IMG/VR virus record: IMGVR_UViG_3300042539_001224 | Span: 1 to 37,196 of that record | Origin: a virus | Reading direction: 5' to 3' (one strand) | DNA: 37,196 bases | Part shown: one piece after another, positions 1,829 to 31,436 of the stretch | Position numbering within the stretch: the first letter of the stretch is position 1 | Layout of the letters: each line of letters opens with the position of its first letter | Program-made: the position numbers and the translations under genes | The notes under the pieces: generated by a model | Seen by the model: only the letters and a program-made list of their open reading frames with translations | Told to the model about the DNA's origin: nothing | The model's database searches: none

Positions 1829-1831
1829 GGC

Positions 1832-2269
1832 TTACCGGGGGGCCGGGGAGACGTCTTCCCACGTGATGCCGTAGGAGCGCGATTGCAGGACCTTCTTAAC
1901 GCCCGACATAGGCTTGTAGGACGTCAGGATGCCCCGCGTGAGAGCGTAGGTGCGGCCGACTGAGACAAGGGTGATGTTGCCGCTAACGCGCAGCACTTCG
2001 CGTGCGATTTTTTGCGACTGCGCCCACGTGTCAAACAGGTTGTTGGACGCGCTGTCACCCTGCAAAACGATCGTCATTTTGTACGGGACCGGGACGTAGC
2101 CGGCGGACAGGACGCCGTCGACGCCCATCATGGTTTCGGCGGGCTCGACAGCCTCCGTGTCGAAGGCGTCGTCGGTCGCGAACCCTTGGATCCGCTGCGG
2201 CGAGTTGAAGAGACCGGGAATCGTCAGCAGCAAGACGCTGTTGGCGGCGGTGAGCGTGCGGACGGCCAC
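1832..2269 (-). CDS. Tail tube protein (DUF3277-like)
   Basis: I start this gene at the GTG at 2269, which overlaps the sheath TAG stop (TAGTG), giving 145 aa (AVRTLTAANSVLLLTIPGLF...). The open frame extends further upstream, but only through the sheath gene in another frame. The sequence resembles DUF3277 tube proteins: a strand-rich N-terminus, a FATDDAFDTEAVEPAETMMGVDG segment, then PVPYKMTIVLQGDSASNNLFDTW. It lies directly downstream of the DUF3383 sheath, the usual pair in this class of contractile phage. It forms the inner tube on which the sheath polymerises. The family assignment is from memory of the pattern. Confidence 0.8.
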   Translation of the reverse strand: MAVRTLTAANSVLLLTIPGLFNSPQRIQGFATDDAFDTEAVEPAETMMGVDGVLSAGYVPVPYKMTIVLQGDSASNNLFDTWAQSQKIAREVLRVSGNITLVSVGRTYALTRGILTSYKPMSGVKKVLQSRSYGITWEDVSPAPR

Positions 2270-4191
2270 TATTGGATCTCCAACGACGAGAGGGTGATGG
2301 CCTGCACCGACTGCCCGTCGGTGTACCAGAAGGTCGCCGGCGGCGAGCCCCGGGCGGCGCGGACGATCGACGAAGCGTCTTCGATCAGCAGATACCAACC
2401 GCGCGTCTGGATCGTTTCGGCGATATCAAAGCCGGCTTGCGCGTTCACCTGCGCGATTTGCGCGGCGGACAGGGTCACGCCGGCGCGGATGGCCCCGAAG
2501 CTTACGGCGGCGTTGATCGGGTCGGCGGCGGCGGCTTCCATGAGCGCGTATCCGGCGACGTTGTATGGGACCGACTTGACCGACGTCAGCAGGTTCATAA
2601 ACGCGAGCTGGAAGCTGTTGTTCAACCAGATTTGATTGACGTACGAGTCGATCCACAAAAAGTCACCCGTGACCGTACCCGGGTAGAAAAAGCTGAATTC
2701 GTCGTTGGCCGTCGCCCACGCGCCGTAGAAATTATAGCCGTTGGCGACGAGCTGGTCGGCGATCGTGCGGTCGGTGACAGACGGGACCATGCCGGCTTGG
2801 CTTTTGAACGCGAGCGACGTTCGGTCGTTCTCACGCTCAAAGTCGATCGACGCGATAAAGCCCATGAGCATGGCCGCAAGGTATTGGTCGGTCGGGGAGT
2901 ACAGAAGCACGGTGCCCGAGTAGCCCGCGGCCCGGATGACCGCGCCGGCCGTGCCGGAAACCGACGACGTGGTGACCACGGCGTCCGTCGTCCAAAGCGC
3001 GTACAGGTAGCGATCGTCTTGGTCGTTCGCCCACGCGGCGAACAGGATCTCGTCGGCCGTCGACGGCTCAAACGTGGTCGCGAAGCTCGCCCAATTTTGG
3101 GCCTGCGCGACCACGGCGTTCATGTTGGTGGACGGGACGCCTTCCGGCGCGCCTTGCGACGTGACGGCCCCGAGAGCTTGCGTGAGCTTCAGCGACGTTG
3201 CGATGGTCCCCGAGCCAAAGCTCATGGTCCCGGCCGCGCCCGGCGTGCCCCCGGTGACCACGAAGGCCGAAGAGACGCTGTCATAGGTGACGACGGTTGG
3301 GCCGGCGCTGATGGTCGTGCTCGACGCCGTTTGCGAGGGCGAGACAAAGTAGGTCCCCGTCCCGCCCGTGCCGGTGCCGAGTGCGGTGATGACCGTTCCC
3401 GCCGTGACGCCCGAGCCGCTGACGACTTGCCCCACGGCGAGCGTGCCGCTGGCGACGGCCGACACGGTCATAGTGCCGTAGGACCCGGTGATGGTGGTGC
3501 TCGCGACCGACTGCGCGACGCTGACTTGATAGGTGCCGACCCCGAGCGCGGTGCCCGAGAGCTGCTTTTGCACTTGCGTGCCGGCGGTAACGCCCGTGCC
3601 GGCGAGGATAGCCCCGTTGACGACGGAGCCGCCGCCAACCGCCGTGACCGTGAGAATGTTGCCGGTGATCGATCCCGTAACGGAGAGGGTGGTCGTTGTG
3701 GCGATCGCGGCGGTGGTGACGGCGTCGTACGCGGCGAGAGCCGTCTGAATCGCGGTAGCGGCGGCGCTGAAGCTGGCGACGGCGGCGAGGTTGATCGACC
3801 CGGACGTCTTGGCCACGCCCGCGGTGGTCACCGTGAGGGTGCCGACCGGGACCGCCTGCAGTTGCGCGAGCGTCATGCTGGCCAGAGACGCGCCGCGCAC
3901 GTAGCCCGGGACGCCGCGGGTGTTGGTCGGGTACTGCGCGAAGAGCATCGCGCCGGGCTTGGCCGACGAGTTGTCAAAGCCGTTGAAGTACACGGCGGCC
4001 TGTGCCGCCTCCTCGCTCGACCCGCCGAAATAGGCGGCCACGGCGGCGGCGGTGGCGAACGACAGGACGGAGCCGATCGGCGCTTGAGTGTTCTCTGTCA
4101 GCAGCAGCCCGGACAGGGCAAGCGCGGTGCCGCCGGCCGAGATCACGCCGGGGTTGACGTTGACGATCTGTGAGGCGGGAATCGCGGCCAT
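2269..4191 (-). CDS. Tail sheath protein (DUF3383) with inserted repeat domain
   Basis: The 640-aa protein begins MAAIPASQIVNVNPGVISAGG, the usual start of DUF3383 sheath-like proteins. It has ...SVLSFATAAAVAAYFGGSSEE near residues 41-60 and the conserved FATTFEPSTADEILFAAWAN and DFLWIDSYVNQIWLNNSFQ stretches later. Residues about 166-296 are a two-unit Gly/Thr-rich beta repeat not needed for the sheath core, and they closely match a segment of the head cement protein in this phage. The protein forms the contractile sheath around the tube and drives penetration. The gene sits between the tail terminator and tube genes and overlaps both by one base. Confidence 0.9.
   Translation of the reverse strand: MAAIPASQIVNVNPGVISAGGTALALSGLLLTENTQAPIGSVLSFATAAAVAAYFGGSSEEAAQAAVYFNGFDNSSAKPGAMLFAQYPTNTRGVPGYVRGASLASMTLAQLQAVPVGTLTVTTAGVAKTSGSINLAAVASFSAAATAIQTALAAYDAVTTAAIATTTTLSVTGSITGNILTVTAVGGGSVVNGAILAGTGVTAGTQVQKQLSGTALGVGTYQVSVAQSVASTTITGSYGTMTVSAVASGTLAVGQVVSGSGVTAGTVITALGTGTGGTGTYFVSPSQTASSTTISAGPTVVTYDSVSSAFVVTGGTPGAAGTMSFGSGTIATSLKLTQALGAVTSQGAPEGVPSTNMNAVVAQAQNWASFATTFEPSTADEILFAAWANDQDDRYLYALWTTDAVVTTSSVSGTAGAVIRAAGYSGTVLLYSPTDQYLAAMLMGFIASIDFERENDRTSLAFKSQAGMVPSVTDRTIADQLVANGYNFYGAWATANDEFSFFYPGTVTGDFLWIDSYVNQIWLNNSFQLAFMNLLTSVKSVPYNVAGYALMEAAAADPINAAVSFGAIRAGVTLSAAQIAQVNAQAGFDIAETIQTRGWYLLIEDASSIVRAARGSPPATFWYTDGQSVQAITLSSLEIQ
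3304..3696 (-). repeat. Two-unit Gly/Thr-rich beta domain in the sheath
   Basis: Residues about 166-296 of the sheath contain two units of about 66 aa with the pattern LTVTAV-GS...GTGVTAGT...GVGTYQVS..Q...STTITG, then GTMTVSAV...GSGVTAGTVITALGTGTG and [16 protein letters not shown]. Most positions match the segment at 7514-7912 in the cement protein. The composition suggests a surface-exposed beta-sandwich or beta-roll decoration. The function is unknown. Confidence 0.85.
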
Positions 4192-4721
4192 TAAGAGGCT
4201 CCGGAATCAGCAGGCGGTTGCGTATTTACGGCGAGCGTATCGGCAAATTGAATAGGTGTCGAGACGGCGGGGTTCACCTGTAGCTGCACCTTCACAACCC
4301 ACCGCGTTTCGATCTGCTTCGCTTCGTTCTCGAAAGGGGCTTGCATCGGGTCGTCAATGAAGAGCGGCACGATATTTTCAGGGAAAGCGGTCACCCCGTA
4401 GGAGCTGCGAAACAGCGTGCGGATCGTCTGGACGTTGTCCGACGAGTTGGGCCCGTGGACGTCGACCTGCACTTCAACCTGCGTCGGCGCGGTCATGGCG
4501 ATCGCGACGGGGTTTACCGCCGCCGGATCCCATTCTTCCGCGGTGGTGGACAGGCGCACGCGCCGCCCCGGGGTGGCCACGACGAAGTCGGCGGCGGTCA
4601 CTTCCGGGACGCGGTTGGCCTGCCCCTGCACGACGTCGGTCCCCGCCGGGAGGATCGCCAACAGGAAGGTGCGAAGCGCCGTGAAGATGGCCGAATCAGT
4701 GACGGACGGTACGAAGCTCAT
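4191..4721 (-). CDS. Tail terminator / neck protein (gp12-like, LIC_12616-type)
   Basis: This 176-aa protein (MSFVPSVTDSAIFTALRTFL...) has the early S-x(2)-DSAIFTALRTFLLAILP helix and later TQVEVQVDVHGPNSSDNVQ..IRTLFRS. That is the pattern of the phage neck-terminator gp12-like family. Such proteins cap the finished tail at its head-proximal end. Its position directly upstream of the sheath fits. It overlaps the 4718-5119 gene by four bases (ATGA) and the sheath start by one base, so these genes are probably translated in a coupled way. Confidence 0.65.
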   Translation of the reverse strand: MSFVPSVTDSAIFTALRTFLLAILPAGTDVVQGQANRVPEVTAADFVVATPGRRVRLSTTAEEWDPAAVNPVAIAMTAPTQVEVQVDVHGPNSSDNVQTIRTLFRSSYGVTAFPENIVPLFIDDPMQAPFENEAKQIETRWVVKVQLQVNPAVSTPIQFADTLAVNTQPPADSGAS

Positions 4722-5119
4722 GGGGCCTCATTCTGCAGGGCGAGCGCCACCTTGCACCAATCGGCCCATGTCTCAAGCACGCCCACGACGAGCCACGTCC
4801 CGACCTGCGCCGGGGGCACGCCCGGGCCCTCCGAAATGACGACAAGATCGCCGCCCTTGCCGCGCACCCGGTTCACGCCTTCGATGTTGCCGTGCAGGTA
4901 CGCGGCGCGCGACGCGCCCTGTACGTTGATCGCGTCGAGCTGGCGAAGGTCTCCCCCGGACAGGGCTTGCATGTCCACGCTGGTGAGGGTGCGCTCGTCG
5001 TAGGTCGGCGTCTGCTTCCCGTCCGCGCCCGTCGTGTACCCGGTCGACAGGAACAGCGCGCCGGGAACCGCCGGCGTGACCGCCCGCGTGACGCGCGAGG
5101 CGATGCCGTTAAGGTCCAC
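4718..5119 (-). CDS. Putative head-tail joining protein
   Basis: The 133-aa product (MDLNGIASRVTRAVTPAVPG) has no motif that I can tie to a named family with certainty. It sits between a HK97-gp10-like neck gene and the tail terminator, the slot for head-tail joining proteins. It contains several short predicted strands (GALFLSTGY, DLVVISEGPG, TWLVVGVLETW), consistent with a small beta-rich connector. It overlaps the upstream gene by 11 nt and the downstream one by 4 nt. The role is inferred from context only. Confidence 0.55.
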   Translation of the reverse strand: MDLNGIASRVTRAVTPAVPGALFLSTGYTTGADGKQTPTYDERTLTSVDMQALSGGDLRQLDAINVQGASRAAYLHGNIEGVNRVRGKGGDLVVISEGPGVPPAQVGTWLVVGVLETWADWCKVALALQNEAP

Positions 5120-5561
5120 CGGTCACCTCGAAATCAACGGAGTTGAGCATGTGCGACGTGTCGATAAGCGGCTTCTCAAAGCCCTTGCGGGCAATCGTTG
5201 CCGGGGCGAGCGGCGGCGCGTTCGTGTCGACAATCGACTGCCGAAGTTGCCCGGCGATCCCCGCCCCCATGAGCTCAAGCGCCGCAGGGCCGTCGTAATC
5301 GTTGCCCTGCAGGATGCGCGCGAGAGACGGCCCCCACCCGTCGGCCTTGTCCGCGACCATGTTGGAAAAGAAAGGCCGGGGCGGGATGCCGCGCGACGGC
5401 GCGCCGAAGTTCTGAATTGCCGCCACGAGAGGTACGCTTGTGCCGTCCGGGTAGGTCGCGCCCTCTAGGAAGCCAACGCGCAGCGTGCCGGGCTTGCCGA
5501 CGCGCTTTGCAAGGTCACGAAGGTACGCCTCTAGCTTCGCGCCGCCCTTGATCGTGGCCAT
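5109..5561 (-). CDS. Neck / virion morphogenesis protein (HK97 gp10-like)
   Basis: This is a 150-aa protein. VAAIQNFGAPSRGIPPRPFF is the hallmark of the gp10-like and Mu virion-morphogenesis families: an aromatic-Gly turn followed by IPPRPF. The N-terminus is basic (MATIKGGAKLEAYLRDLAKRVGK). The C-terminus, LIDTSHMLNSVDFEVTGG, is the usual strand that ends these proteins. It is expected at the head-tail interface. It lies 3 nt after the DUF4054 connector, the common order connector, neck, terminator, sheath. Confidence 0.75.
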   Translation of the reverse strand: MATIKGGAKLEAYLRDLAKRVGKPGTLRVGFLEGATYPDGTSVPLVAAIQNFGAPSRGIPPRPFFSNMVADKADGWGPSLARILQGNDYDGPAALELMGAGIAGQLRQSIVDTNAPPLAPATIARKGFEKPLIDTSHMLNSVDFEVTGGP

Positions 5562-5564
5562 GCG

Positions 5565-5993
5565 TCACCGCCGAAAGATCGAAGCGTAGGAGTTGGACAC
5601 CGGCGGCGCGACGTAGCGGAAGCCGCGGTACTTGGCGACGGCTTGCCAGAAGGCCGCGCCGTATTTCGTCTGCAGCCACCACGCGGACGAACCGGCCGGC
5701 GGGCCCATGTCGGCGGATACGGTCACGCTGCCCTGCGTCGCGCTGTTGATGCGGCCGACGAGCGGCGATGCGCCGGGCATGTTGAGGGCGGCGATATGCG
5801 CCGTGACCATATTGAGAAGCGCGAGGCGAGGCTGGTAGGTGACGGCGTCGGCGGGCACTACGGACGCGTCGTCGTTGGCCAAATAGAGGCCGGCTTCCGC
5901 GAAGTACTCGACGGCGAGGGGCTCGTCGACAACCGTCGCCAATTCCGGATACCGGGTCGACCAAGACCCGTAATCGAAAACGGCGACGGTCAC
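5565..5993 (-). CDS. Head-tail connector, DUF4054 family
   Basis: The 142-aa product ([21 protein letters not shown]) matches the DUF4054 layout. It has F..RYPE.A.V at the N-terminus, an acidic [10 protein letters not shown] helix, [17 protein letters not shown] in the middle, and [20 protein letters not shown] near the end. Members are helical adaptor proteins that bind the portal ring and extend the channel. It sits between the capsid-proximal small gene and the neck gene, as expected. Confidence 0.8.
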
Positions 5994-6001
5994 CGGACGG
6001 C

Positions 6002-6373
6002 CTAGTTTTTGTCGGCGGGCGTGACGCCAGCGGCGGGCTTGCTCGGGTCGAGCGGCTCAAGGCCGGTCTTCAGTTCCGCAAGCTCGCGGGCCTGCGCCCG
6101 AGCGTTCGCGCCGTCCGCCTGCGCAAACACGAGGCCGCGGGCGTAGGGGCCGTAGCCTGCGTTCTCTTTGACCCATTGCTCCCAAAATTTGGCGGGAACA
6201 TTAGGAGTCAGGCCGTACGCGCCGGCGAGCTCGTGCGTCGCGATCGGCATGCCGTTAACGTCAGTCGCCAGACGCGCGCCGTTGAGGGTCACGCGTTGGC
6301 GGGTGCCGTCCGAGCCGCGGTTTTCGAGATGAAGGCCGTTCGGGAGTTTGCAGGCGACGGTGACCGTGTCCAT
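6002..6373 (-). CDS. Hypothetical protein downstream of the capsid gene
   Basis: This is a 123-aa protein. The N-terminus [19 protein letters not shown] has the look of a small conserved phage family that follows DUF2184 capsid genes. The region [27 protein letters not shown] is helical and the C-terminus is low-complexity ([12 protein letters not shown]). The role is unknown; a capsid-associated or head-completion function is plausible from position. It starts 3 nt after the capsid stop. Confidence 0.7.
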
Positions 6374-6376
6374 GGC

Positions 6377-7432
6377 CTAGACCCCGAGCATCGACGAGAT
6401 GGCGAACGGAAGGCGGATGATCGCGCCCCACGTGCCCTGCGACTTCTTCTGCTTGTAGGCGGACAGCTCGACGACGATCGGGTGCGCACGCATCTTCTCG
6501 GTGAAGGCGCAATACCCGGTGTCCTGCCCGTCCACGCTCGTCGCGATGAGCTGCACGAGCTCGCCGGCCGCCGTGTCGTACTCGACAGCGGTCTTGACGG
6601 TGATGTTCGGGAAGTTCTTTTTCAGAAGGTCGGCGACGCTGACGTTGAAGCTGTTGGTCGCGGTGAGCGCGATCGAAGAGCCCGGGCTCATGGCCAGCGT
6701 CATAGGCTGATCCATGTTGATCGTGCCGTTGGCCTGCGCGTTGAGCTGGACATAGAGCGACTGGATATCGCTGTACACTTCGTTCGCGGTGGCCGTGATG
6801 ACACCGGCGGTGACCCACGGGCCGTGAGCTTGGGTGTTGTACGCCTTCGCGCCCGGCTGCAGGGACGCGGACAGGCTCGGGTCGTTGAGCAGACCGTAGT
6901 TCTGCAGGCCCGAGATCCCGAAGAAGTAGGACCGGTTTTGAAACTTGTTGAGCGTCAGCGCCGACGCCACGTTGAGCTGCGCCGCCATGCCGATCTTGGC
7001 CGCGCCCCACATTTCCAGCGTCTTCTCGCCCCATTGGGTGATGGTCTGGTAGTGGTAGGATTGGCGCATGGGGAAGTTGACGTTCATCCCCACGCTGCCG
7101 TTGTCGCTGTAGTCGCCGTAGGCGCTGACTTCGCCGGTGTTCTCGACAATCGGGAACGTGGCGGTGGTCATCGTCCAATCGCCCTTTTTGACCTCGCCGA
7201 GAATGTCGGCGGCCTGCATCGGCGACACAAGGACGCGGATGAGATCCGGGTCGATGAAGTTGGTCAGGTACGCGGGGATGCCGGCGTTGCTCGTGGTGAC
7301 GAGCGTCGGCAGGGCGTCCATTGCGAACGCGAAGTCCCGGGCGATCTCCGGAGACACGTAGTCCGTGGCCCCCGGAAGGATAATGCCGTAGTCGCGCTCG
7401 ACGCGCGAGAAATCAGCGTGGCGACGCGTCAT
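6377..7432 (-). CDS. Major capsid protein (DUF2184)
   Basis: The 351-aa protein matches the DUF2184 major capsid family. It has an N-terminal MDALPTLVTTSNAGIPAYL segment, an FPIVENTGEVSAYGDYSDN loop, NFPMRQSYHYQTITQWGEKT, and the C-terminal GQDTGYCAFTEKMRAHPIVV strand before the A-domain end (IIRLPFAISSMLG). It forms the HK97-fold shell. There is no obvious long N-terminal scaffold. The protease/scaffold gene lies two genes upstream with the cement gene between them, a normal arrangement. Confidence 0.9.
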   Translation of the reverse strand: MTRRHADFSRVERDYGIILPGATDYVSPEIARDFAFAMDALPTLVTTSNAGIPAYLTNFIDPDLIRVLVSPMQAADILGEVKKGDWTMTTATFPIVENTGEVSAYGDYSDNGSVGMNVNFPMRQSYHYQTITQWGEKTLEMWGAAKIGMAAQLNVASALTLNKFQNRSYFFGISGLQNYGLLNDPSLSASLQPGAKAYNTQAHGPWVTAGVITATANEVYSDIQSLYVQLNAQANGTINMDQPMTLAMSPGSSIALTATNSFNVSVADLLKKNFPNITVKTAVEYDTAAGELVQLIATSVDGQDTGYCAFTEKMRAHPIVVELSAYKQKKSQGTWGAIIRLPFAISSMLGV

Positions 7433-7435
7433 GGT

Positions 7436-8359
7436 TTACCCCGGAGCCTGAGAAGACATTTTGATCAGCTCGCCCGCGCCGCCGATCGAAGCGGAATACC
7501 ACTTCGTCTCAACTGCGCCGGCGGCGGTGATGGTGGTGCTCGACGCGGTCTGCGTCGGGGAGACGATGTACGTCCCGGTGCCGCCCGTCCCGGTGCCGAG
7601 CGCCGAAATGAACGTGCCGGCGGTGACGCCGGTTCCGGACAGGACGTCGCCGATATCGAGCGAGCCCGAGCCAACCGCCGACACGGTGAGCGTGCCGTAG
7701 GTGCCCGAAACAGTGGTGCTCGCCGCGGTCTGCAGGATGCTCACGGCGTAGGTGCCGACGCCGCCGGCGGTGCCGGTGAGCTGGCGAGTGACGCGCGTGC
7801 CGGTGGTGACCCCGGTGCCCGAGATCGTGCCGCCAACGACGACAGTGCCCGAGCCAACCGCCGTGACGGTGAGGGTGGTGTCGGCGATCGAGCCGGTAAC
7901 GGAGAAGGTCGACGCGGCGATCGCCCCCGTGACGCTCGCCCCGGTCGGGGCGGTGCCGGTCGCGGCGAAGGTGACCGCGCCGGTGGCGTAGTTGGCGTAC
8001 GCCTTCAGGCCGATGGTCACGGCGTTGGATCCGCTGTTGGTCACCCAAAAGTCGCCGGCGCTGTGCAGGACGACGGGGAGCCCTTGAGGGATGACGTTGC
8101 TCGTCGACGCGAGGAACGTGGTAATGAGACCGACTTGGCCAGAGCGCGCCACGAAGCCGGTGACGAGGCCCGGACCGGCGTTGGCGACGGTGGTGTCGGT
8201 CGCTTCGTCGGCCCAAGCAAAGCGGCCGACGGTCACGCCGGCCGCGCCGGCGACAAAGCCGTTTTCATTCGTCAGCACGACGGCGCGCGGATTGGCGCTG
8301 GCGAAGTCACCCGCGACGGCGGGAGCCGGCGTGATTTTGACCGTGGTTTGAAAAGACAT
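7436..8359 (-). CDS. Structural cement protein (Gp24-like) with C-terminal beta-repeat extension
   Basis: Residues 1-135 follow the structural-cement Gp24 pattern: [64 protein letters not shown]. These proteins bind at capsid contacts and stabilise the shell. Residues about 150-282 are a two-unit Gly/Thr-rich repeat nearly the same as one in the sheath, followed by a short tail ([20 protein letters not shown]). At 307 aa it is roughly twice the length of the core alone. It lies between the protease and capsid genes. Confidence 0.8.
7514..7912 (-). repeat. Two-unit Gly/Thr-rich beta domain in the cement protein
   Basis: Residues about 150-282 repeat a 66-aa pattern: [55 protein letters not shown], then [50 protein letters not shown]. 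It matches the sheath insert at 3304-3696 over its whole length, with both units in the same order. Confidence 0.85.
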
Positions 8360-8371
8360 GGCGCGGCGTCC

Positions 8372-9724
8372 TTACGCGATCTTCAGGGCTTGGGCGGTCG
8401 GGAACCGCGAGCGGAATTCAGCGTCCGCCTTGGCATCCAGCGCGATGCGCGGGGCCTTCGGTTCGCTGGCGTCCGGGCGGGGGAGCATCTTCACCATGGC
8501 CGGGAAGGCGGACGGGTGGACGCCCTTGGTGTCGATCTTGGCGGCGTCGAGCGCGAGCTTGTACACCGCGGCTGCGCTGTCCATGCCCATCACTTCGCCC
8601 ACGTAGGGGAACACGGCCTTTTCGGCGGCGCGAATGTCGGCCACTTCCTTGAGCGTGGCGGAACGGATGGCGGCGGCGTCCATGGCGGGCTTCACCTTGT
8701 CTTCGTCTTCGTCGTCCATGTCTTCGTCGTAGCCGTCTTGCGCGGCCGGCGCGGCGCTCATGGCGCGAACGGCGGCGAGGGTCTCGTCGTCGACCTTGCC
8801 TTCAAGCATGGCGCAGATGCGCGACACGACGTCGCCGTCGTCATCGATGGCCGGCGGCTTGTCGGAAATGTCGGGCTCGGGGATCATGTCGGGCTCGTCG
8901 GCGGCGAGGCCGCCGCTGCCTTGCACCGCGCCGATCACTTTGATGACGTCGTCAACGTCAATGCCTTCGTCGGCGGCCAGTTTGGGGGTGACGGCGCGAA
9001 TCAGGCGCGGGGCGAGATCCTTGGTGGCGCTCTTGAAATTCTTGCGGGTGACGTCGCGGCAGAACGGCGTGGCGTCAAACGCGACGCCGTCGGCCAGCTT
9101 GGGCCCGATGAGGGCAGTCAGAGCGCCCGAGAGCATCAGTGCCGTGCGAGATTGAAGCGCCATGTGCCCCTCGAATTGACTGTCCCCGACGACAACGTCG
9201 GATCCGGCGCGCCCCTCTTCGACGAGCGCAACGTGGTTCCCGACGATGTTTCGCATGATTCCGTCGTAATGCAAACCCTTGTAGGTGCCCGGGGTCATGT
9301 CCGGGGTGTACCGGTACGCGCAAGACCATTCCTGTTGCTCGCGGCTCTCGATCCCGGCGATAGCCGGCCCGGACCACACAACGGCGGAATTCAGCAGGTA
9401 CGGGTCGCGAAAGACCGCGTCCGTGCCCGTCGAGCCGACGACGAGACCGGGCATATGCGAGTCTTCATCGTTCGCCGTGACCGGAACGTGTTTGGACAGG
9501 ATTGGCAGGTTGTTGAAGGTCGGGGCGGCCTTGGCCAGCTCTTCCGGGTCGCGCAACAGGCGGTACACGCGGCCCGGCTCAAGCCCGAGAGCTTCCGCGC
9601 CCGGGATCTCGTGACCGTAGTACGGGTTTACCGTCGCCTTTGAGATCCGCGTGACGCGGACGTGCAGCCGCCCGTCGACGTCATAGACGCGCACGGACCG
9701 GTCAAAGGCAAGACGATTGCTCAT
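8372..9724 (-). CDS. Capsid maturation protease with scaffold region (DUF2213)
   Basis: This is a 450-aa protein. Residues 1-180 match DUF2213 proteases: MSNRLAFDRSVRVYDVDGRLHV, the PYYGHEIPGAEALGL segment, FNNLPILSKHVPV, and the catalytic-type GNHVALVEEGRAGSDVVVGD. The His and the Ser/Asp-rich turn after it fit a herpesvirus/HK97-like serine protease fold. The remainder is acidic (DEDMDDEDEDKVKP) and helical, as expected for a scaffold. The protease cleaves the scaffold during prohead maturation. It lies upstream of the cement and capsid genes. Confidence 0.85.
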   Translation of the reverse strand: MSNRLAFDRSVRVYDVDGRLHVRVTRISKATVNPYYGHEIPGAEALGLEPGRVYRLLRDPEELAKAAPTFNNLPILSKHVPVTANDEDSHMPGLVVGSTGTDAVFRDPYLLNSAVVWSGPAIAGIESREQQEWSCAYRYTPDMTPGTYKGLHYDGIMRNIVGNHVALVEEGRAGSDVVVGDSQFEGHMALQSRTALMLSGALTALIGPKLADGVAFDATPFCRDVTRKNFKSATKDLAPRLIRAVTPKLAADEGIDVDDVIKVIGAVQGSGGLAADEPDMIPEPDISDKPPAIDDDGDVVSRICAMLEGKVDDETLAAVRAMSAAPAAQDGYDEDMDDEDEDKVKPAMDAAAIRSATLKEVADIRAAEKAVFPYVGEVMGMDSAAAVYKLALDAAKIDTKGVHPSAFPAMVKMLPRPDASEPKAPRIALDAKADAEFRSRFPTAQALKIA

Positions 9725-9755
9725 GTCCTCGCGTACCTCGATTTGCGCGGGTGCG

Positions 9756-9965
9756 CTAGCTGGCCGGGCCCGGCGTTGCGATCTCTGCGCGCACGGCGGC
9801 GATAGCCTCTTGATGGCGAATGTCCAGATTCATGAACACCTCCATTCCGTCGCGGCTGTCCCATTTCGCCGCAAGCGCGGTTTGGGTGGCCTGCCGAAGC
9901 TGCGCGAGCTCCTGCCCCAACGTGCGGACCATGATCTTTAGTTCGTCAAATTCTTCTTCGGTCAC
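9756..9965 (-). CDS. Small coiled protein, unknown function
   Basis: The 69-aa product starts at a GTG at 9965 with AGGA a short distance upstream. It is rich in charged and Leu/Gln residues (EEEFDELKIMVRTLGQELAQLRQATQTAL), suggesting a coiled coil. It lies between the fibre gene and the protease gene in the late operon. A chaperone-like or head-associated role is possible but there is no motif to support one. Confidence 0.6.
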   Translation of the reverse strand: MTEEEFDELKIMVRTLGQELAQLRQATQTALAAKWDSRDGMEVFMNLDIRHQEAIAAVRAEIATPGPAS

Positions 9966-16848: not shown

Positions 16849-17055
16849 ATGCTTGTGAAGTTTTCCACGCTGGCCGGCGGCGTTTTCATCGAAGTGCGAG
16901 CCGATGCCGAGAGTTACGGGCCGGCGGATCGCTGCTTCCGGTTCGATGAAGACGGCCGTTCCGAATGGGCGTCGTACGCGGACCTAACAAGCGCGAACCC
17001 TGCGCCAAGATGGTTTGGCCACGCTTTCCGCGCCGCGGACTTTGAGTTCGCCTGA
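16849..17055 (+). CDS. Small hypothetical protein
   Basis: I start at the ATG at 16849 (MLVKFSTLAGGVFIEVRADA), after GGGAGGG; the open frame extends upstream only through promoter A. The 68-aa product is strand-rich with conserved-looking aromatics (ADRCFRFDEDGRSEWASYAD) and ends FRAADFEFA. The role is unknown. It is one of the separately promoted island genes. Confidence 0.6.
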   Translation: MLVKFSTLAGGVFIEVRADAESYGPADRCFRFDEDGRSEWASYADLTSANPAPRWFGHAFRAADFEFA

Positions 17056-17060
17056 CTCTC

Positions 17061-17076
17061 GGGGGCTTCGGCCCCC
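17061..17076 (+). terminator. TTCG-loop hairpin, second copy
   Basis: GGGGGC-TTCG-GCCCCC with the same flanks as the hairpin at 16427 (GCCTGACT.TCGGGGG before, AAGGAACC after). No U-tract follows. It is probably a duplicated intergenic element. Confidence 0.5.
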
Positions 17077-17101
17077 ACCCTCAACATAAGGAACCACGCA
17101 A

Positions 17102-17428
17102 ATGGGAATTATCGTCTCTGTCCTCCGTGACGCCGCCGGCGGCGACTGCAGCTTGAACGGCGTGTCGAGCCGCTTTACCGATCTCTGCGTCGTGAACGTC
17201 CCGGGCCCCTTTGAGCCCCGCCCCGACCGCCCCGCCGCGATGCTCCTCGCGAACCACTACGGCACGGCTAAGGTCGTCCCGGTCGACGACGCCGGCAACG
17301 TCCGCCCGGGCGGCATGTTCGGGGGCAACTTCGTCAGCTCGTCGGACAGCAGGTGGGGCGACGCGGTCGCGAAGATCATCGGCGTGCGCATGACGGCGGT
17401 GCCGGTCCACGATCGGTACGAATGGTGA
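17102..17428 (+). CDS. Hypothetical protein
   Basis: This is a 108-aa protein (MGIIVSVLRDAAGGDCSLNG). An AAGGAACC stretch precedes the ATG. Mixed alpha/beta appearance with SRFTDLCVVNVPGPFEP and AAMLLANHYGTAKVVPVDD. I recognise no domain. It follows the second TTCG hairpin and shares the leader type with the 16469 gene. Confidence 0.6.
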   Translation: MGIIVSVLRDAAGGDCSLNGVSSRFTDLCVVNVPGPFEPRPDRPAAMLLANHYGTAKVVPVDDAGNVRPGGMFGGNFVSSSDSRWGDAVAKIIGVRMTAVPVHDRYEW

Positions 17429-17435
17429 CGATTTA

Positions 17436-17478
17436 AGTTGACCGCCCCGTCATATCTGATATCTTCTGACTGTAGCCA
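17436..17478 (+). promoter_or_regulatory. Promoter B (43-bp copy 2)
   Basis: -35 TTGACC (17438-17443), 16-bp spacer, -10 TATCTT (17460-17465), identical over 43 bp to promoter A and including the TGAC-N6-GTCA inverted repeat. GGAGAG just downstream provides the RBS for the 17492 gene. Confidence 0.7.
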
Positions 17479-21664: not shown

Positions 21665-23259
21665 ACCTGTTTCACGGCCCCGGAGTTGATGCGCATGGGT
21701 TCGCGCGAGGTGCGACTGTATGCGATCATGACGGAGTCGGCTAGGTTCGGCGACTTGCTGTCATCCGGCGCTTTGTCAACGACGATCTTGCCAGACAGGT
21801 TGAGGCTGTACGTCGGTTGGGAAAGCTCCCCGGACAGCTTGGACAGCAGCGGCAAGTCCGGGTCGATCGAAATGATATCGTCCGGATTGTACGGGGCCGA
21901 CGCGGTCACCGCCCGGTGCGTGGCGCGGAACCGCTGGCGTAGCCCCCACCACGCTTGAGCCTTGGAATTGGAGAAAAAGTCTTCGTTCTTCCGGCCGGGC
22001 TCGTCTTGTCCAAGCGGGTTGAACACCGCCGCGGACCCCCGGAACGCCCGGGCGTCAAGAAACGGCCGACCTTCCTTGCCGCGCAGTTCGTTGATGACCC
22101 GGGCGTCGCCGCGCACGCCTGCCCCGAGCCCGTCCGCATCGTACAGGAAGCCCGGGAGGCCGTGCTTGTCGCACATACCAAAGGCGCGTTGCGTGCTGCC
22201 GAAAATGTCGTCGCCTACGCCCTTCCACTCGTCGAGATCCAACAGGCGCGGGCCGTGGCGGACGGCAAAGGCGAGGCTGTCCTTCCCTTCGTCGGCCACG
22301 TCAAAACCCCCGACCCGCGCGCCCGTCGGCGCAATCCCGAGCTTGGCGCACGCGTTAATGGCCGATTGAATCCACGCGGACGGGATAAGCACGCCCTCTG
22401 CGGACGCGCTGTAATCCCGGTCGACTTCCTGCGCGAGCGTCACGGGATCCAGCTCGTCTTTTTTCGCCTCGTACCACGCGTCATCTTTGCGGGGGTCGTC
22501 GCGCCAATCGAAAATGAAGACGCTGATTTTGCCGGAATGGCGCTTGATCTCAAACGGGTTGCCCCGGCCGTTGACGCTTGACATGTCGATACGGCAGTTG
22601 GTCGTTGCGGACAGGGACGCGTCGACAAGGCCCGGGCGCTCAAGGTGCGCGGACTCGTCGACGAAATAGATCGTCTTGCGGTCGCCGCGGCCGATGTTGT
22701 CGCCGGCCTCCCCCGTGATCGTTGACCGGGTCGCCGGGAATTTGATTCGCATATGGGGCGCGTCGTTCTTCAGCGACCACCCGGCTTTGAATTCGGGCGG
22801 CAGGCCGTGAATGAACATACGCGCCTTGAAGAACAGCGACTTTGGGTCGTCCAGCTTGTCGACGTACTCTTCCTTGCGCGACCCAAAGCCGATCGAGATC
22901 CCTTCGTGGAACAGGCAAAGCGTCGACGCGAGACCCACCGCGAGCCACGAAATCCCGCAATCCCGGCTCTTCTCCGTGATCCCCGGCTTGCGCGCCCGCC
23001 ATTGTTCCATGACCCATTCGATCCATTCCGTTTGCTTGGGGAACAACAGAAAGGGAATGGACGTCGGGAGGCCGATATCCGCGTTCCGGGGATCGAAGGT
23101 GACGCCCCAATCGTTGATGAACGCCGCGGGCTTGTCTCGATAGTATGCGCGCAGATAGGGCAGGCGCGCGTCGGGGTCTTCCCGGATCCACTGAAGCCGG
23201 CGCATGCGAGCCGCAAAGATCGGGACGTAGTCGGGGTTTTGCCAGTTAAAGTCTGGCAT
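21661..23259 (-). CDS. Terminase large subunit
   Basis: The 532-aa protein has both terminase domains. The ATPase domain has a divergent P-loop, [10 protein letters not shown] (96-105), and Walker [11 protein letters not shown] (D201, E202). The RNase H-like nuclease domain has [11 protein letters not shown] (D320) and YDADGLGAG (D374). It packages DNA at the portal vertex and cuts the concatemer. It overlaps the portal gene by ATGA. The small subunit is about 3 kb upstream, separated by the lysis genes; that split is seen in some phages. Confidence 0.95.
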
Positions 23260-23262
23260 GGC

Positions 23263-23463
23263 TTACCCGCCGGCCGCCCGCTCCCGCTCCGCCGCGGCGG
23301 TCGCATGCGGACGGTACGACAGGCGGTTCGCGAGCATGGTCGCGGCGGCCGGATGATCGCGCAGATGCTCTAGGAAGTCGGCCAGCGCCCAATCGCGCAT
23401 GTCGCGCGCCTCTTGCGCCGCTTCGTCCAGAGCGCGCCGCATATGCGTCGTGGTGATGGTCAT
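23263..23463 (-). CDS. Small hypothetical protein
   Basis: I start at the ATG at 23463, which overlaps the upstream gene by ATGA, giving 66 aa (MTITTTHMRRALDEAAQEAR). It is helical, with two Arg-rich amphipathic helices (RDMRDWALADFLEHLRDH, MLANRLSYRPHATAAA). The longer open frame upstream is out-of-frame shadow. Unknown role; perhaps a small packaging accessory, as it is next to the terminase. Confidence 0.6.
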   Translation of the reverse strand: MTITTTHMRRALDEAAQEARDMRDWALADFLEHLRDHPAAATMLANRLSYRPHATAAAERERAAGG

Positions 23464-25765: not shown

Positions 25766-25957
25766 CTAGGCGCGCCCCGTCGTGATCGGCGCGCTGCACT
25801 CGCCACACCACCACCGGCCGGGCTTTCCGGCGGCGGGGGCGTCGCACCGGGAGCAGGCGGGCCGCAGGCGCAGGACGGGCGGCGCGGCCCTTGCCACGCG
25901 CCGGCTCGGACGGTCGGCTACGTACAGCTCTTGCTCGCGGCATTGCGCCCGGGTCAT
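25766..25957 (-). CDS. Small zinc-ribbon protein
   Basis: The 63-aa protein has a C-terminal zinc ribbon: CSRC (C35, C38) and CGEC (C51, C54), with a basic N-terminal half rich in Arg. It overlaps the TetR-like gene by ATGA, so the two are probably translated together. The function is not known; it may bind nucleic acid. Confidence 0.6.
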   Translation of the reverse strand: MTRAQCREQELYVADRPSRRVARAAPPVLRLRPACSRCDAPAAGKPGRWWCGECSAPITTGRA

Positions 25958-26214
25958 GCGAGCGCGCGCAGCCGGGCGAGTGCGGCCGCACCAAGCGCCT
26001 CGCTCACCGGTCGGCGGCCCATAGCGGCGAGAAACAGGTCATCCTTGGTCGGCCAGTGCTTCATGATCGCGCCGGTAGAGACCCCGGCTCCCCGGGCGAC
26101 TTGACGAATCGTGACGTCTTCGTACCCGTGCTTCACGAACAGGTCGCGGGCGACCATGAGAATCGTTGCTTGGGTGCGTTGCGCGGCAAGGGCGCGGGGC
26201 GAATCGGGGCGCAT
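25954..26214 (-). CDS. TetR_N-only DNA-binding protein
   Basis: The 86-aa protein has a full TetR N-terminal domain: helix RTQATILMVARDLFVKHGYE, then the HTH VTIRQVARGAGVSTGAIMKH and the following F helix WPTKDDLFLAA. The usual ligand-binding C-terminal domain is absent, so it is a stand-alone HTH. It sits downstream of its own apparent promoter (26242-26270). It may regulate the late or lysis genes. Start at the ATG at 26214, which has AGGAGA upstream. Confidence 0.75.
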   Translation of the reverse strand: MRPDSPRALAAQRTQATILMVARDLFVKHGYEDVTIRQVARGAGVSTGAIMKHWPTKDDLFLAAMGRRPVSEALGAAALARLRALA

Positions 26215-26241: not shown

Positions 26242-26270
26242 TGTTAACCGAACGCCGCGCTTCGTGTCAA
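26242..26270 (-). promoter_or_regulatory. Promoter for the TetR_N gene, with an inverted repeat in the spacer
   Basis: Minus strand: -35 TTGACA (26270-26265, full consensus), 17-bp spacer, -10 TTAACA (26247-26242). The spacer carries CGAA-N8-TTCG (plus-strand 26249-26264), a good operator candidate for the gene it drives. It overlaps the last codons of the small terminase gene by 4 nt. Confidence 0.6.
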
Positions 26271-27019
26271 CCTTGCCCGGCCTTCAGGAAGTCCTCGTAC
26301 GCCCGGGCCGCCGCGTGCGGATCGTCAGCGGCGAGCTGCGCGACCTTGGCGACGACGCCTAGCGCCCCCGTCAAGTTCACGTTGTCTTTGAAGCCCCCGA
26401 GCATGCGGACGATGTTTTCCGCGCTCTTGCTCTGATCGGCGACGATGATCTCAAGCCCGCGGTTCGTTTTCTTCAGGCCGCGGTACAGCAGCCGCCCGCC
26501 GGGCGACAGGTTCCCGGTCGGCTTGTAGATCGGGTGCGGGATGCCCGCGCCGGCGCACTCGGGGCAGTCAGGGTGCGGCGGGTGGAAGGGACGCCACCCA
26601 AGGCCGCCCATAGGCGCGGGCAGTTCGGTCCCGTTCTTTGACGCGAGATCCACCGCCCGGGCGTACTCTTCGTCGCGCCACTGATGCTGGAATCCCTCGC
26701 CATTGCAGTAGCGGCAGTTGCCCCACTTGAGCTCCATAAGCTCGTTAGGGTCGGCCTGCACGATCATGACGTCGCGCACGAACATGTCGGCCAGCGTCAC
26801 GGTCACGGGGGCGGTCATGGTCGCCGCTTTGGCCAGCTCGTCGATCCTTGCGGAAATTTTGTGGTCGGCCAGTAGGCGCGACGCTTCGCTGGCGATCGTC
26901 GCGGGCTTGGTGTCCGGGCCGACGTTGTACGCAAAAACGTACGCAGCCGGGCCGTTACGATGCACGGCGTAGTGCTCGCAAAAAGCCTCTTGCTTGGCGG
27001 GGATAGCGGACTCGGCCAT
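26267..27019 (-). CDS. Terminase small subunit with zinc-type insert
   Basis: I start at the ATG at 27019 (MAESAIPAKQEAFCEHYAVH); the open frame continues upstream only into the repeat region. Residues 18-62 match the Terminase_2 HTH (AFCEHYAVHRNGPAAYVFAY, KPATIASEASRLLADHKISA). Two motifs CRYCNGEG (C102, C105) and CPECAGAG (C152, C155) form a DnaJ-like zinc pair inserted in the middle. It recognises the packaging start site. The repeat region next to it may include that site. Confidence 0.85.
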   Translation of the reverse strand: MAESAIPAKQEAFCEHYAVHRNGPAAYVFAYNVGPDTKPATIASEASRLLADHKISARIDELAKAATMTAPVTVTLADMFVRDVMIVQADPNELMELKWGNCRYCNGEGFQHQWRDEEYARAVDLASKNGTELPAPMGGLGWRPFHPPHPDCPECAGAGIPHPIYKPTGNLSPGGRLLYRGLKKTNRGLEIIVADQSKSAENIVRMLGGFKDNVNLTGALGVVAKVAQLAADDPHAAARAYEDFLKAGQG

Positions 27020-27101
27020 GGCCAACAGATACCTCGCGCGACGATGGTCACGCAATACCCCGACCGATACCCCGACCTTGAGCCCGGGTGTGGGTATCGA
27101 G

Positions 27102-27130
27102 CAAACCCTTACGCCACAACGGTTTGCGGG
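27102..27130 (+). repeat. 29-bp inverted repeat, left arm
   Basis: It begins CAAACCCTTACGCC and ends GGTTTGCGGG. It matches the reverse complement of 27343-27371 at 27 of 29 positions. The left arm itself contains the short inverted pair CAAACC/GGTTTG with a 13-nt loop. Confidence 0.85.
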
Positions 27131-27342
27131 CCTTGACGGCAAAAACATACCCCGACCTACGGTTTGGATCGGGGTATAGATAACCCATTGATATCTATAA
27201 TTAATTAGACATTTTACCCCTGATACCCAGTATATATCTAGATTGGCCCATATAATATTTCTCTTGTTTACATCATGCAGATGATAATAGGGTCCTGCCG
27301 CTCTAAGAAAACGCGTTTAGGTCGGGGTATCGGGGTATTTTT

Positions 27343-27371
27343 CCCGCAAACCCTTGTGGCGTAAGGCTTTG
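27343..27371 (-). repeat. 29-bp inverted repeat, right arm
   Basis: Reverse complement begins CAAAGCCTTACGCC and ends GGGTTTGCGGG; partner of 27102-27130. The two arms are 212 bp apart. Confidence 0.85.
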
Positions 27372-27418
27372 AGAGTACCCCGACTATCGGGGTATGGGTC
27401 GGGGTATCAGGGGTAAAA

Positions 27419-27793
27419 ATGGCCTGTTTGACGTGTTCCGCCGCCACCAACCGTCCATACTGCGACGATTGCGTGCGAGCGACAATTTTTGCGGCTGGAT
27501 ACGACGAGCGGACAAATTTGCTCGCCGTGCGTCGGTCAAAGCTCGTCAGCTATTTTTGGGAATGTCCGACGCACGGCTTGACGCTTTGGAGCACGGCGCG
27601 CGGGGCCTGCCGCGTCTGCAGCCCGGACCGGAACGACTCGCCGCGGGCGCAGGCACACCGCGCCGGCGCGGTAAGCTATCAGGCGCGGTGCGAGATCCAC
27701 GGCCTCACGGCGCACGCGACCCGGCACGGCAAGTGCCTCACGTGCTTTACGGCCGGCGGCGCGGTGCGTCGGTGGCTACGGGTGCCGGTCTAG
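27419..27793 (+). CDS. Three-site zinc-finger protein
   Basis: The 124-aa protein has an N-terminal four-Cys site (C3, C6, C15, C18) and then two copies of a CxxHGLT...CxxC module: C49, H52, C64, C67 and C91, H94, C106, C109. The repeats have the same motif order, suggesting an internal duplication. The ATG at 27419 is just inside the repeat region. A nucleic-acid-binding role is likely. It is the only plus-strand gene between 19.1 and 34.6 kb and is divergent from the small terminase. Confidence 0.75.
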   Translation: MACLTCSAATNRPYCDDCVRATIFAAGYDERTNLLAVRRSKLVSYFWECPTHGLTLWSTARGACRVCSPDRNDSPRAQAHRAGAVSYQARCEIHGLTAHATRHGKCLTCFTAGGAVRRWLRVPV

Positions 27794-28683: not shown

Positions 28684-31086
28684 TTATTTTGCACCAAATG
28701 CAGCCGCGGCCGCCGTGCTCGCCGGGGCGGTTTGAGCCTTGGTGTAGAGCTCTGCGACTCGCCCGGGCGTGTCCGCGTTGAGGGCGATATGACCGGCCTT
28801 AATAAAGAGCTTGGGCTTGCCGTTGTCAGGCGTGACCACGTTGTCCACGCGCCCATCCTTGAGCGCCGGGTGCCAATCGTACCCGAGCGCCTGCATCATG
28901 CCGCGGCGCTTGGTGTGCGGGATGCCCGCGCGCATGCCGTCCAGCAACCGGGCAAGGTACAGGCTCGACACCCACCCGCCGGCAAAGCCCGGCCGGCCTT
29001 CCTCGATCGCCTCTAGGATCTCCTGTTCGGCGCGCCCGAGCGAGAACCGGATAGCCTCCCGCGTGCTCGACGTCTCGGGGGCCCGGGCGGGCATTTCCCC
29101 AACCGCGCGAGTCTTGAGGTAGTGGGCGACGACGGCGAAGCCCGGCGTCTGGCCGGCGTAGGCGTTGCGCCCGTGAAGCCAATCGTACAGGTCCGGGAAA
29201 TAGTCGCCGTCCATGCCCGACAAGATCAGGTCGGCCTTGCACTGTTGGGCCGCAAAGAAAATGCCGTACCGCCGTTCGTTGTCGTCGATCGGCACGCCGT
29301 CGCGGTGATTCGTGCAGATAATGCCGTTGGCGCGATTGTCGCCGGTAATCTGGTCAACGCCTTTCTTCTCAAAGGGCATGCGCAGGTTGGTCACGACGGG
29401 CTTAAATTCTTCCAGAAAGTCCCGTTTGTGCGACAGGCTGACTTCTTCAATCGCGATCCACGTCTTGCGCATAAGCCATGCGTTAAACTTCATCCCGTCC
29501 TTTGCCAGCGCGGCGGCGTTGGGGCGGTGCGAATAGCCCTCGCCGTTGATGTAGTCCATGACGAGCGTGATTAGCGTCTTGCCGTTGCCCTGCACGCCCT
29601 GCAGCACGGGCCACCACATGACCTTGACGCCCGGGCGTTGAGTGATAGCCGCGAGATAGTCGAGCAACAGGTCGGCGTCGTTGGCGTGCGGGTATTGCTT
29701 GCGCACGAGCTCGACAAAGCGGGAGGCGTCGCCCGGGGCGGTGACCGGCTCATAGGGCAGGTAGGTGTTGACGTACTTGCGCAACCCCTCCGTGACGATC
29801 TCCCCGGCGGCCAGCTCGGGCCGAAAGCACAAGTCGTCGACCACGGGGGGAATGTTCACGCGGCTACGGGTAAGGGCGAGATAGGCGCTGTCCGTCGTCT
29901 TCGCGCCGGTCGGGTCCAAGACAAAGAGGTGCCCCCCGTACTCGACGTCAAAGGCTTCTCGGACCATGAGCTTGTTCCGGGGCGCGCTGTATATCCGTAG
30001 GTGGTCGCTGATGAAGCTGCAGCCGGCAAAATGCTCTAGTTGCTCGTACGCGCCCTTGTACTCTCCGCCGCCGTCCCGCTGGCCGGGCACGCTCCCGACC
30101 ACGGGTTGCGCCGCCATGACCGCCTGCAGCGCCGCGGGCGGCTCGGGGGTGGCGCGGACCGGGTCGCTCGCCACCTTGGACACAAAGGCGCATGCCTTGA
30201 GAATGGTCGTCGACAGGTAGGCGGCGTGACTCGGGCTATCCCACTTTTCCCGGGCGAGCGCGGACCGCCGCATGAGCCGTTCGATCCGCTCGCAATCCTT
30301 GCCCGTCCAGAACGCAAAGTGATTCGCTAGGCTTTGGTCCGCCTCGCTTCGCCCGTCGTCCGGTACGTTGCCCGCCCAAAGGTCCGCAAACGTGCCCTTG
30401 CCCCCAAACGCCCCGGCGACGCTGCGCGAGGCCGCCGCAAGCGCCCGGCGCACAAGCTCGTCGTCGTCGGCCGGTCCGGACCACTCGGGCACGGGGGCCG
30501 TGGTCCACTCTTGCGGCGCGCCGGCGACGTGGACGGGCGGGGGGAAGTATTGCGCGACGGTGGCGGCCAGCGCCGCGGTGCAGTCGAGCCCGGCGTCGCC
30601 GGCGGCGTGATAGCCGGTGAGGGCGACGAAGCGCCCGGACGTGTAGAGCTCTAGGTGGTGGGGCTTGTAACGCGTGCCGTGCCCGGGGAGGGCGGCGTAG
30701 GTGCCGAAAATATGCAGGCCGGTCCCGGAGTGCGAAACTTCAACGGCGGCCCCCGCGAAGCGGGCGGCGAGCTCTTGCGCTACCGGGCTCCAAGTCCCGT
30801 CCGTCTGCAGCGCGCCGTCTATGTCCAGAAAAAAGAACGGGTCGGCCGCCGTGAAGACAAAGCCCGCGCCGGAACCCCACCCCCGGTCGTACGTTGGGGC
30901 CATGGCCAGCGCGCAAGCGGCGCTTGTCCAGTTGGCCGGGTCTTGAGCGTCGCACGGGACGCCCGTCGTCCATGAGCACGGGATCTTGTCAAACTTGCCC
31001 GGGTGCCCCGAGCGAGGTTGCGCGTACCACGTGACGAATTGCTCCCTCAACGCCAAAGGCGCGAGGGCCCCCGGTAGGGCCTGCAT
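28684..31086 (-). CDS. Primase-helicase (AEP-type N-terminus, SF3-like DUF5906 helicase)
   Basis: The 800-aa protein joins two activities. The N-terminus shows AEP primase residues: FFFLDIDGA (D88, D90) and VEVSHSGTGLHIFG (S120-H125). The C-terminal half has an SF3-type P-loop GVQGNGKT (497-504) and Walker B WIAIEEVS (E547/E548), followed by DNRANGIICTNHRDGVPID, the sensor/arginine-finger region of D5-like helicases. It primes and unwinds DNA in phage replication. It ends just before promoter G. The start ATG at 31086 is only about 15 nt from the neighbouring stop. Confidence 0.85.
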   Translation of the reverse strand: MQALPGALAPLALREQFVTWYAQPRSGHPGKFDKIPCSWTTGVPCDAQDPANWTSAACALAMAPTYDRGWGSGAGFVFTAADPFFFLDIDGALQTDGTWSPVAQELAARFAGAAVEVSHSGTGLHIFGTYAALPGHGTRYKPHHLELYTSGRFVALTGYHAAGDAGLDCTAALAATVAQYFPPPVHVAGAPQEWTTAPVPEWSGPADDDELVRRALAAASRSVAGAFGGKGTFADLWAGNVPDDGRSEADQSLANHFAFWTGKDCERIERLMRRSALAREKWDSPSHAAYLSTTILKACAFVSKVASDPVRATPEPPAALQAVMAAQPVVGSVPGQRDGGGEYKGAYEQLEHFAGCSFISDHLRIYSAPRNKLMVREAFDVEYGGHLFVLDPTGAKTTDSAYLALTRSRVNIPPVVDDLCFRPELAAGEIVTEGLRKYVNTYLPYEPVTAPGDASRFVELVRKQYPHANDADLLLDYLAAITQRPGVKVMWWPVLQGVQGNGKTLITLVMDYINGEGYSHRPNAAALAKDGMKFNAWLMRKTWIAIEEVSLSHKRDFLEEFKPVVTNLRMPFEKKGVDQITGDNRANGIICTNHRDGVPIDDNERRYGIFFAAQQCKADLILSGMDGDYFPDLYDWLHGRNAYAGQTPGFAVVAHYLKTRAVGEMPARAPETSSTREAIRFSLGRAEQEILEAIEEGRPGFAGGWVSSLYLARLLDGMRAGIPHTKRRGMMQALGYDWHPALKDGRVDNVVTPDNGKPKLFIKAGHIALNADTPGRVAELYTKAQTAPASTAAAAAFGAK

Positions 31087-31101: not shown

Positions 31102-31422
31102 CTAGAGGGCGGACTCGACGGCTTGTCGCTTCAAATCGTCGGGCGCGTCGCGGGCGATAGCGTCGCCCATGGCAAGACCCTGCGCAAGTACTGAAAGCAG
31201 GGGACGACGGACGGCTTCCCGCATCACCGCTTCGTGCAGCTCGGGCATGCCGCCAAAGGCCGCGCTGACGCTGCCAAGGCTGACGCCGGCCGCGTCGGCG
31301 ACACGCATGCGCGTCACCTTGGCGACGCCTTCCTCGTGGGCAATCGTACAGGCGGCGTCGAGTACCGCGGTATTCCGGGCGGCGTTCATGCGGTGCGCCC
31401 TCTGCTTTCGTCCGTCGCTCAT
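31102..31422 (-). CDS. Second TetR_N-like DNA-binding protein
   Basis: I start at the ATG at 31422 (MSDGRKQRAHRMNAARNTAVL), which has GGAAG upstream; the open frame extends into the promoter region. The 106-aa protein has a TetR-like HTH (VTRMRVADAAGVSLGSVSAA) and the next helix (FGGMPELHEAVMREAV), but only a short C-terminal helix (VLAQGLAMGDAIARDAPDDL) rather than a ligand domain. It lies next to an operator (31437-31450) at its own start. It is a candidate for the protein that binds TGAC-N6-GTCA. Confidence 0.7.
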   Translation of the reverse strand: MSDGRKQRAHRMNAARNTAVLDAACTIAHEEGVAKVTRMRVADAAGVSLGSVSAAFGGMPELHEAVMREAVRRPLLSVLAQGLAMGDAIARDAPDDLKRQAVESAL

Positions 31423-31436
31423 GGCGTGACTTCCGT

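Follow-up and report, generated by a model that had tools for sequence, protein, structure and literature searches.

We propose that the non-coding region between the small terminase gene terS and a divergently transcribed gene in the phage genome studied here is, with good probability, a replication origin, the iterons of which are bound by the C-terminal winged helix of the primase-helicase encoded by the same phage. The whole stretch of DNA analysed, termed the window, comprises the 37,196 bases of an IMG/VR virus record. In the proposed mechanism, the winged helix would bind the CGGGGTAT arrays, i.e. arrays of 8-12-bp iterons, that flank an AT-rich stretch. With several copies bound, helicase rings would assemble at the AT-rich core and then melt it. 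Once a strand is exposed, the PrimPol domain would begin primer synthesis on it, for which the conserved ATCAAnGGGTTA (ATCAATGGGTTA in the window) may be the site. We infer each of these steps, including the priming site and its direction, and also that replication starts at this region in vivo. An earlier note on this DNA had offered three readings of the region, i.e. an origin with iterons, a packaging site and a double operator; the first of these is supported by conserved arrays, a shared core and the co-variation of the repeats with the winged helix.

Layout of the iteron region and its neighbours

The features of the region and of the relevant neighbouring genes are as follows (window coordinates):

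26267-27022, minus strand: small terminase gene terS (Terminase_2, phrog_51); transcription leads away from the region
27023-27418, no strand: proposed origin, a non-coding region with iterons that has terS on one side and the divergent CxxC/CxxH gene on the other
27055-27076, minus strand: outer left array, tandem iterons ATACCCCGACCGATACCCCGAC, i.e. two CGGGGTAT with a 12-bp period
27102-27130, plus strand: left arm of the 29-bp inverted repeat (27/29)
27147-27154, minus strand: iteron CGGGGTAT on the terS side, immediately outside the conserved core
27154-27237, minus strand: conserved core of ~85 bp (profile match), with tandem iteron, AT-rich spacer, ATCAATGGGTTA and inverted iteron
27170-27177, plus strand: iteron CGGGGTAT, in the orientation opposite to that of the core's tandem pair
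27178-27320, no strand: AT-rich stretch (by AT content), candidate unwinding element
27181-27192, minus strand: ATCAATGGGTTA, conserved core element, candidate PrimPol start site
27212-27228, minus strand: GGGTATCAGGGGTAAAA, a degenerate tandem iteron with which the core opens
27323-27338, plus strand: right array, tandem iterons CGGGGTATCGGGGTAT with an 8-bp period
27343-27371, plus strand: right arm of the inverted repeat
27376-27415, plus strand: outer right array, with inverted TACCCCGA, CGGGGTAT at 27388 and 27400, and GGGGTA at 27410
27419-27793, plus strand: divergent gene for a CxxC/CxxH zinc-like protein, with relatives in L006, L007 and L083
28684-31086, minus strand: NrS-1-type PrimPol/HBD/SF3 helicase of 800 aa, proposed origin-binding initiator
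28762-29031, minus strand: winged-helix domain (codons 686-775 of the primase-helicase), proposed iteron reader
31102-31425, minus strand: TetR-like HTH protein, encoded immediately before the primase gene

The region had been described as a cluster of about nine repeats beside terS and between divergent genes, and both the position and the cluster are borne out. Eight exact copies of CGGGGTAT lie within 27055-27407, starting at 27055, 27067 and 27147 on the minus strand and at 27170, 27323, 27331, 27388 and 27400 on the plus strand, and one further copy is present elsewhere in the window, at 10362. This count of nine is far beyond what shuffles give, with an expectation of 1.0 for the whole window and none of 100 shuffles reaching nine. 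The shorter unit GGGGTA is present in 11 copies at 27056-27415. The 29-bp inverted repeat matches at 27 of 29 pairs, as noted earlier, compared with at most 20 for any two 29-mers when the 396 bp of the region were shuffled. The AT-rich core with two TATAAT sequences was likewise described correctly: AT content is 65% in the AT-rich stretch compared with 34% across the window, and TATAAT occurs at 27196 and 27251. The symmetric placement of the repeats holds as an approximation only, with the centres of different inverted pairs spread from 27199 to 27237. Hairpins had also been described in the leader RNAs of both genes; local stems do exist, but folding is no better than in shuffles (z -1.25 and -1.09), and on this ground we reject a function of their own for these hairpins. 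GC skew, put forward as a check for an origin, has no switch at 27 kb in the window and is uninformative in both the window and phage NrS-1. A nucleotide similarity search of the iteron region against cultured phages gave no match.

The primase-helicase has the NrS-1-type make-up, i.e. an AEP PrimPol, an NrS-1-type helix-bundle domain (HBD) and a helicase. It matches PF22763 (4e-20), PF19263 (DUF5906; 3e-15) and phrog_1829 (8e-112), and in comparison with NrS-1 structures the PrimPol N-terminal part matches with E=8e-26 and the helicase with 1e-5. A plasmid search with the protein gave partial matches only, mainly of the N-terminal part in haloarchaeal plasmids. A TetR-like gene accompanies the primase gene in 69 of 77 primase loci of relatives in addition to the window, and the cultured phages JD001 and Scuro have the same gene pair, annotated as TetR regulator and primase. 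The window also encodes a second short TetR_N-type HTH protein (25954-26214, minus strand; PF00440, 5e-16), a relative of the TetR-like protein that is encoded before the primase gene.

Arrays and a shared core in relatives

The 77 viral contigs that encode this primase, many of them partial, together with the window gave 78 records, which were scanned for short repeats in both orientations inside an AT dip. By the repeat criterion alone, 33 of the 78 records were positive compared with none in composition-preserving shuffles; an AT-dip iteron array or a match to the core profile described below is present in 48 of the 78, and the other 30, among them many partial contigs, are without an array by these criteria. 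Many of the relatives have one similarly built region each, the unit of which differs in sequence between phages (GGGGTA forms, ATGACCGAA, CGGGAGTA, TATGGGGG, CATAGGGAA, GTGGATAAG, GTTCGTAACG, ATCATAA, CTTCCAGCA and GTGACGCTG, among others) and is often arranged in tandem with a period of 8-12 bp and inverted across the AT stretch. The earlier note had held that a lack of repeat conservation in relatives would speak against its readings; the comparison gave the opposite, i.e. the arrangement is conserved and the repeat sequence changes.

Usually, the array lies just upstream of terS. It is directly 3' of the primase gene in L042, L070 and L080 and between terS and the primase gene in L059, and its neighbour is not TerS in L008 and L051. 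The DNA pattern TCGGGGTATNGGTCGGGGTA was dropped as an array finder in viral contigs because it gave only four stretches, at least one of which is unrelated (L087, beside an integrase gene). In two records with the same primase type, L070 (9447-9693) and L131 (the L081 record; 6551-6675), the unit is TTATCCAC(A), which resembles the box of DnaA/oriC-type origins (TTATNCACA); DnaA-like boxes are present in both arrays. In L080, positions 1-8000 hold integrase, primase and iterons followed by apparent capsid, protease and portal genes, and this stretch resembles a capsid-forming PICI-type satellite.

Several arrays have in common a core of ~85 bp that consists of a tandem iteron, an AT-rich spacer, ATCAAnGGGTTA and an inverted iteron. 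A profile of this core built from nine loci, with the window left out, was searched in 2.25 Mb and matches the window at 27234-27170 (minus strand) with a modest E=0.01 and also recovers other phages with the primase (E<0.1); a reversed profile, used as control, gave one match, at E=0.4. Iterating the profile brought in further phages, among them Edwardsiella phage PEi21 and Klebsiella phage JD001, with E-values that are not independent because the second model includes the window. JD001 and PEi21 have two core copies each, and PEAT2 and LAPP1 have weaker matches. In every case, the core is followed closely, and in the same direction, by a late gene, i.e. terS or, for the second copies in JD001, PEi21, LAPP1 and PEAT2, Neck1. 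When all viral contigs were scanned for the core pattern irrespective of the primase, most matches again preceded terS. A search for core-bearing phages that lack the primase yielded only two new records close to completeness, each of which encodes it; everything else was a fragment. The tandem iteron and the ATCAA element are usually ~22 bp apart; in L051 (6128-6195) and L056 (14881-14981), this spacing is off by roughly one helical turn, in opposite directions, a pattern compatible with a protein that occupies a single face.

In JD001 (L143), the two copies, before Neck1 and before terS, are near-identical iteron regions of ~300 bp at 9440-9760 and 22960-23300, i.e. 13.5 kb apart, and may be two origins or one origin and a regulatory copy. 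For an origin, it is unusual to be present twice per genome in almost the same form, and this counts against the origin reading. The two copies are in line with a late promoter or operator, in which the repeats would be sites of a regulator that switches the late terS operon and the divergent gene, with GGGGTA near -35, TAnAAT near -10 and a start near GGGTTA. The fixed, co-directional position of the core before late genes points the same way, as does the spacing of 17/18 bp between GGGGTA and TAnAAT in many loci; by contrast, a sigma-70 scan in the window found one site versus 0.9 expected, which is chance level. Two divergent transcription units begin in the region, so it very probably contains promoters too. 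In other words, the position before late genes and the promoter-like spacing make the late promoter the strongest rival to the origin or else a second function of the same DNA; what the repeats co-vary with helps to weigh the two.

Co-variation of the repeats with candidate readers

We used protein identity as predictor of a shared repeat unit among non-redundant phages with a known unit. The C-terminal part of the primase-helicase (residues 686-775) predicts repeat class, as assigned by eye from the scans, with an AUC of 0.785. In the test comparing other domains, the winged helix reached an AUC of 0.766 (p=0.002), after identity in PrimPol, HBD and SF3 had been regressed out it reached 0.757 (p=0.004), and under four class/redundancy settings it gave 0.78-0.83 (p=0.002), where the permutation p-values model shared ancestry only in part. 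The PrimPol domain does not predict repeat class (AUC 0.495), and residues 311-440 are more weakly associated (AUC 0.64-0.74). Among the 800 columns, the strongest associations are at 757, 747, 738 and 730, all of them within or next to the predicted recognition helix and wing. The AlphaFold2 model of residues 686-775 is a confident winged helix (block pLDDT 95-98), with column 730 as part of the recognition helix and columns 747-757 as part of the wing. Structural comparison of this model returned mostly winged-helix domains with Z of 5-6, which supports the fold class only; Foldseek gave no significant match (best E=1), and the winged helices of SaPI Rep and P4 alpha are absent from both match lists. 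L006 and the L047 group have ATGACCGAA and the wing residues GRAT in common, and their primases are distant.

The adjoining terS gene in most relatives is what one would expect for a packaging site (pac or cosB-like) to which the small terminase binds beside its own gene, and lambda cosB, which lies upstream of the lambda small terminase gene, provides an analogy for this position. However, TerS identity does not predict repeat class (AUC 0.500 compared with 0.689 for the winged helix on the same 23 loci, p=0.02). Moreover, in the natural recombinants L047 versus L049/L077/L082, primases that are 98-99% identical go with the same iterons and with TerS proteins of different families, i.e. the same array precedes unrelated terminases. 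Also against packaging are the arrays without TerS as neighbour and the two copies per genome in Jedunavirus-type phages such as JD001, and in PEi21. We therefore reject TerS as the reader of the iterons, and the packaging reading of the earlier note is disfavoured and very improbable.

The TetR-like protein is also rejected as iteron reader because it does not co-vary with the repeats (AUC 0.486, p=0.56). This result counts against the late promoter as the main function of the repeats, as do the differing families of the zinc-like partner among phages and the finding that the repeats track a domain of a replication protein; as a sole explanation, we regard it as improbable. The operator reading, with the zinc protein or another regulator, may still apply as a second role. 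In the case of the TetR-like protein, which alone among regulators is linked to the primase in nearly all relatives, the repeats do not change along with its HTH as operator sites would. The array could instead be bound by the divergent zinc-like protein, which is related to HNH/endonuclease VII, as the target of a mobile element or nuclease. A CxxC/CxxH gene is found on the other side of the array in many relatives, and some of these proteins match phrog_1081, phrog_1035 (endonuclease VII) or DUF723, but they belong to differing families across phages, and none was seen beside the arrays of L042, L070, L080 and NrS-1. Thus, this protein is rejected as a general reader, and we consider this explanation the least likely of all, with hardly any weight.

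Returning to the replication origin, a more far-reaching version, which we put forward tentatively and think rather doubtful, is that of a self-contained, re-addressable origin. Here, one protein would do all of the recognition (winged helix on iterons), melting (helicase on core) and priming (from a start element that the origin itself contains), the iteron would change along with the wing, and the core would double as a late promoter. If true, many mutually incompatible origin addresses would have been set on one conserved core, and late transcription of terS/Neck1 would be tied to replication, with two cores in some phages.

Implications and comparison with known systems

Primase-polymerases of the NrS-1 type need no primer to initiate a DNA strand. 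In the literature searched, no origin is described for phages with an NrS-1-type enzyme beyond the suggestion in a structure paper that two 8-nt NrS-1 sites ‘may serve as the origin’ (PMC7102993). The region reported here would provide dozens of phages with a defined candidate origin that can be tested, and cultured phages of Klebsiella, Edwardsiella, Pectobacterium and Acinetobacter are among them. It would also place the NrS-1 priming site in an origin context. The pairs of winged helix and iteron would also form a natural series for working out a DNA-recognition code.

NrS-1 (L166) has a homologous PrimPol/HBD and helicase, and between its primase stop (17051) and terS (17459) lies an array of 11-12 copies of AAAGTGTAACC with a GC content of 30% versus 41%. 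The published priming site TTTGGTTA (PMC8718748), found as a single exact copy in NrS-1, is located in this array at the junction of two iterons, at 17198, and has GGTTA in common with ATCAATGGGTTA of the window. The NrS-1 literature searched makes no mention of the array. An annotated hypothetical gene, NRS1_29 (17055-17456), covers it and is probably not a real gene. NrS-1 differs from the window in its repeat and in that a CII-like rather than a TetR-like gene precedes the primase gene.

In plasmid pRN1, orf56/orf904 similarly encode a regulator followed by a PrimPol-SF3 helicase-winged helix protein (PMC4234260); the proposed pRN1 origin, however, is a 100-nt stem-loop without iterons. The alpha protein of satellite phage P4 unites primase, helicase and an iteron-binding winged helix, and the P4 ori has iterons (PMC4234260), but the primase domain is of the bacterial (Toprim) type.

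The pri-rep origins of PICIs, for which E. coli PICIs are the closest comparison, consist of two iteron sets around an AT-rich region (PMC6092414), and the C-terminal domains of SaPI Rep (SaPI5) and Cch2 bind iteron origins (PMC7581432). The window is similar in that two iteron sets surround an AT-rich region, with a repeat sequence that varies by element. Its proposed initiator is an AEP primase-helicase (in SaPI/PICI, an AEP primase-helicase or a helicase), the C-terminal domain of which, going by its winged-helix fold and the co-variation, may bind the iterons. It differs in that the array is in a tailed-phage genome with an NrS-1-type PrimPol and next to terS, and in that it lies ~1.3 kb from the 3' end of the primase gene with another gene in between. 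Because it is not immediately 3' of the primase/rep gene, a position that is found in NrS-1, L042, L070 and L080, we do not class the array as a PICI origin. It is best read as an iteron/AT-rich/iteron array of the SaPI/PICI/P4 kind.
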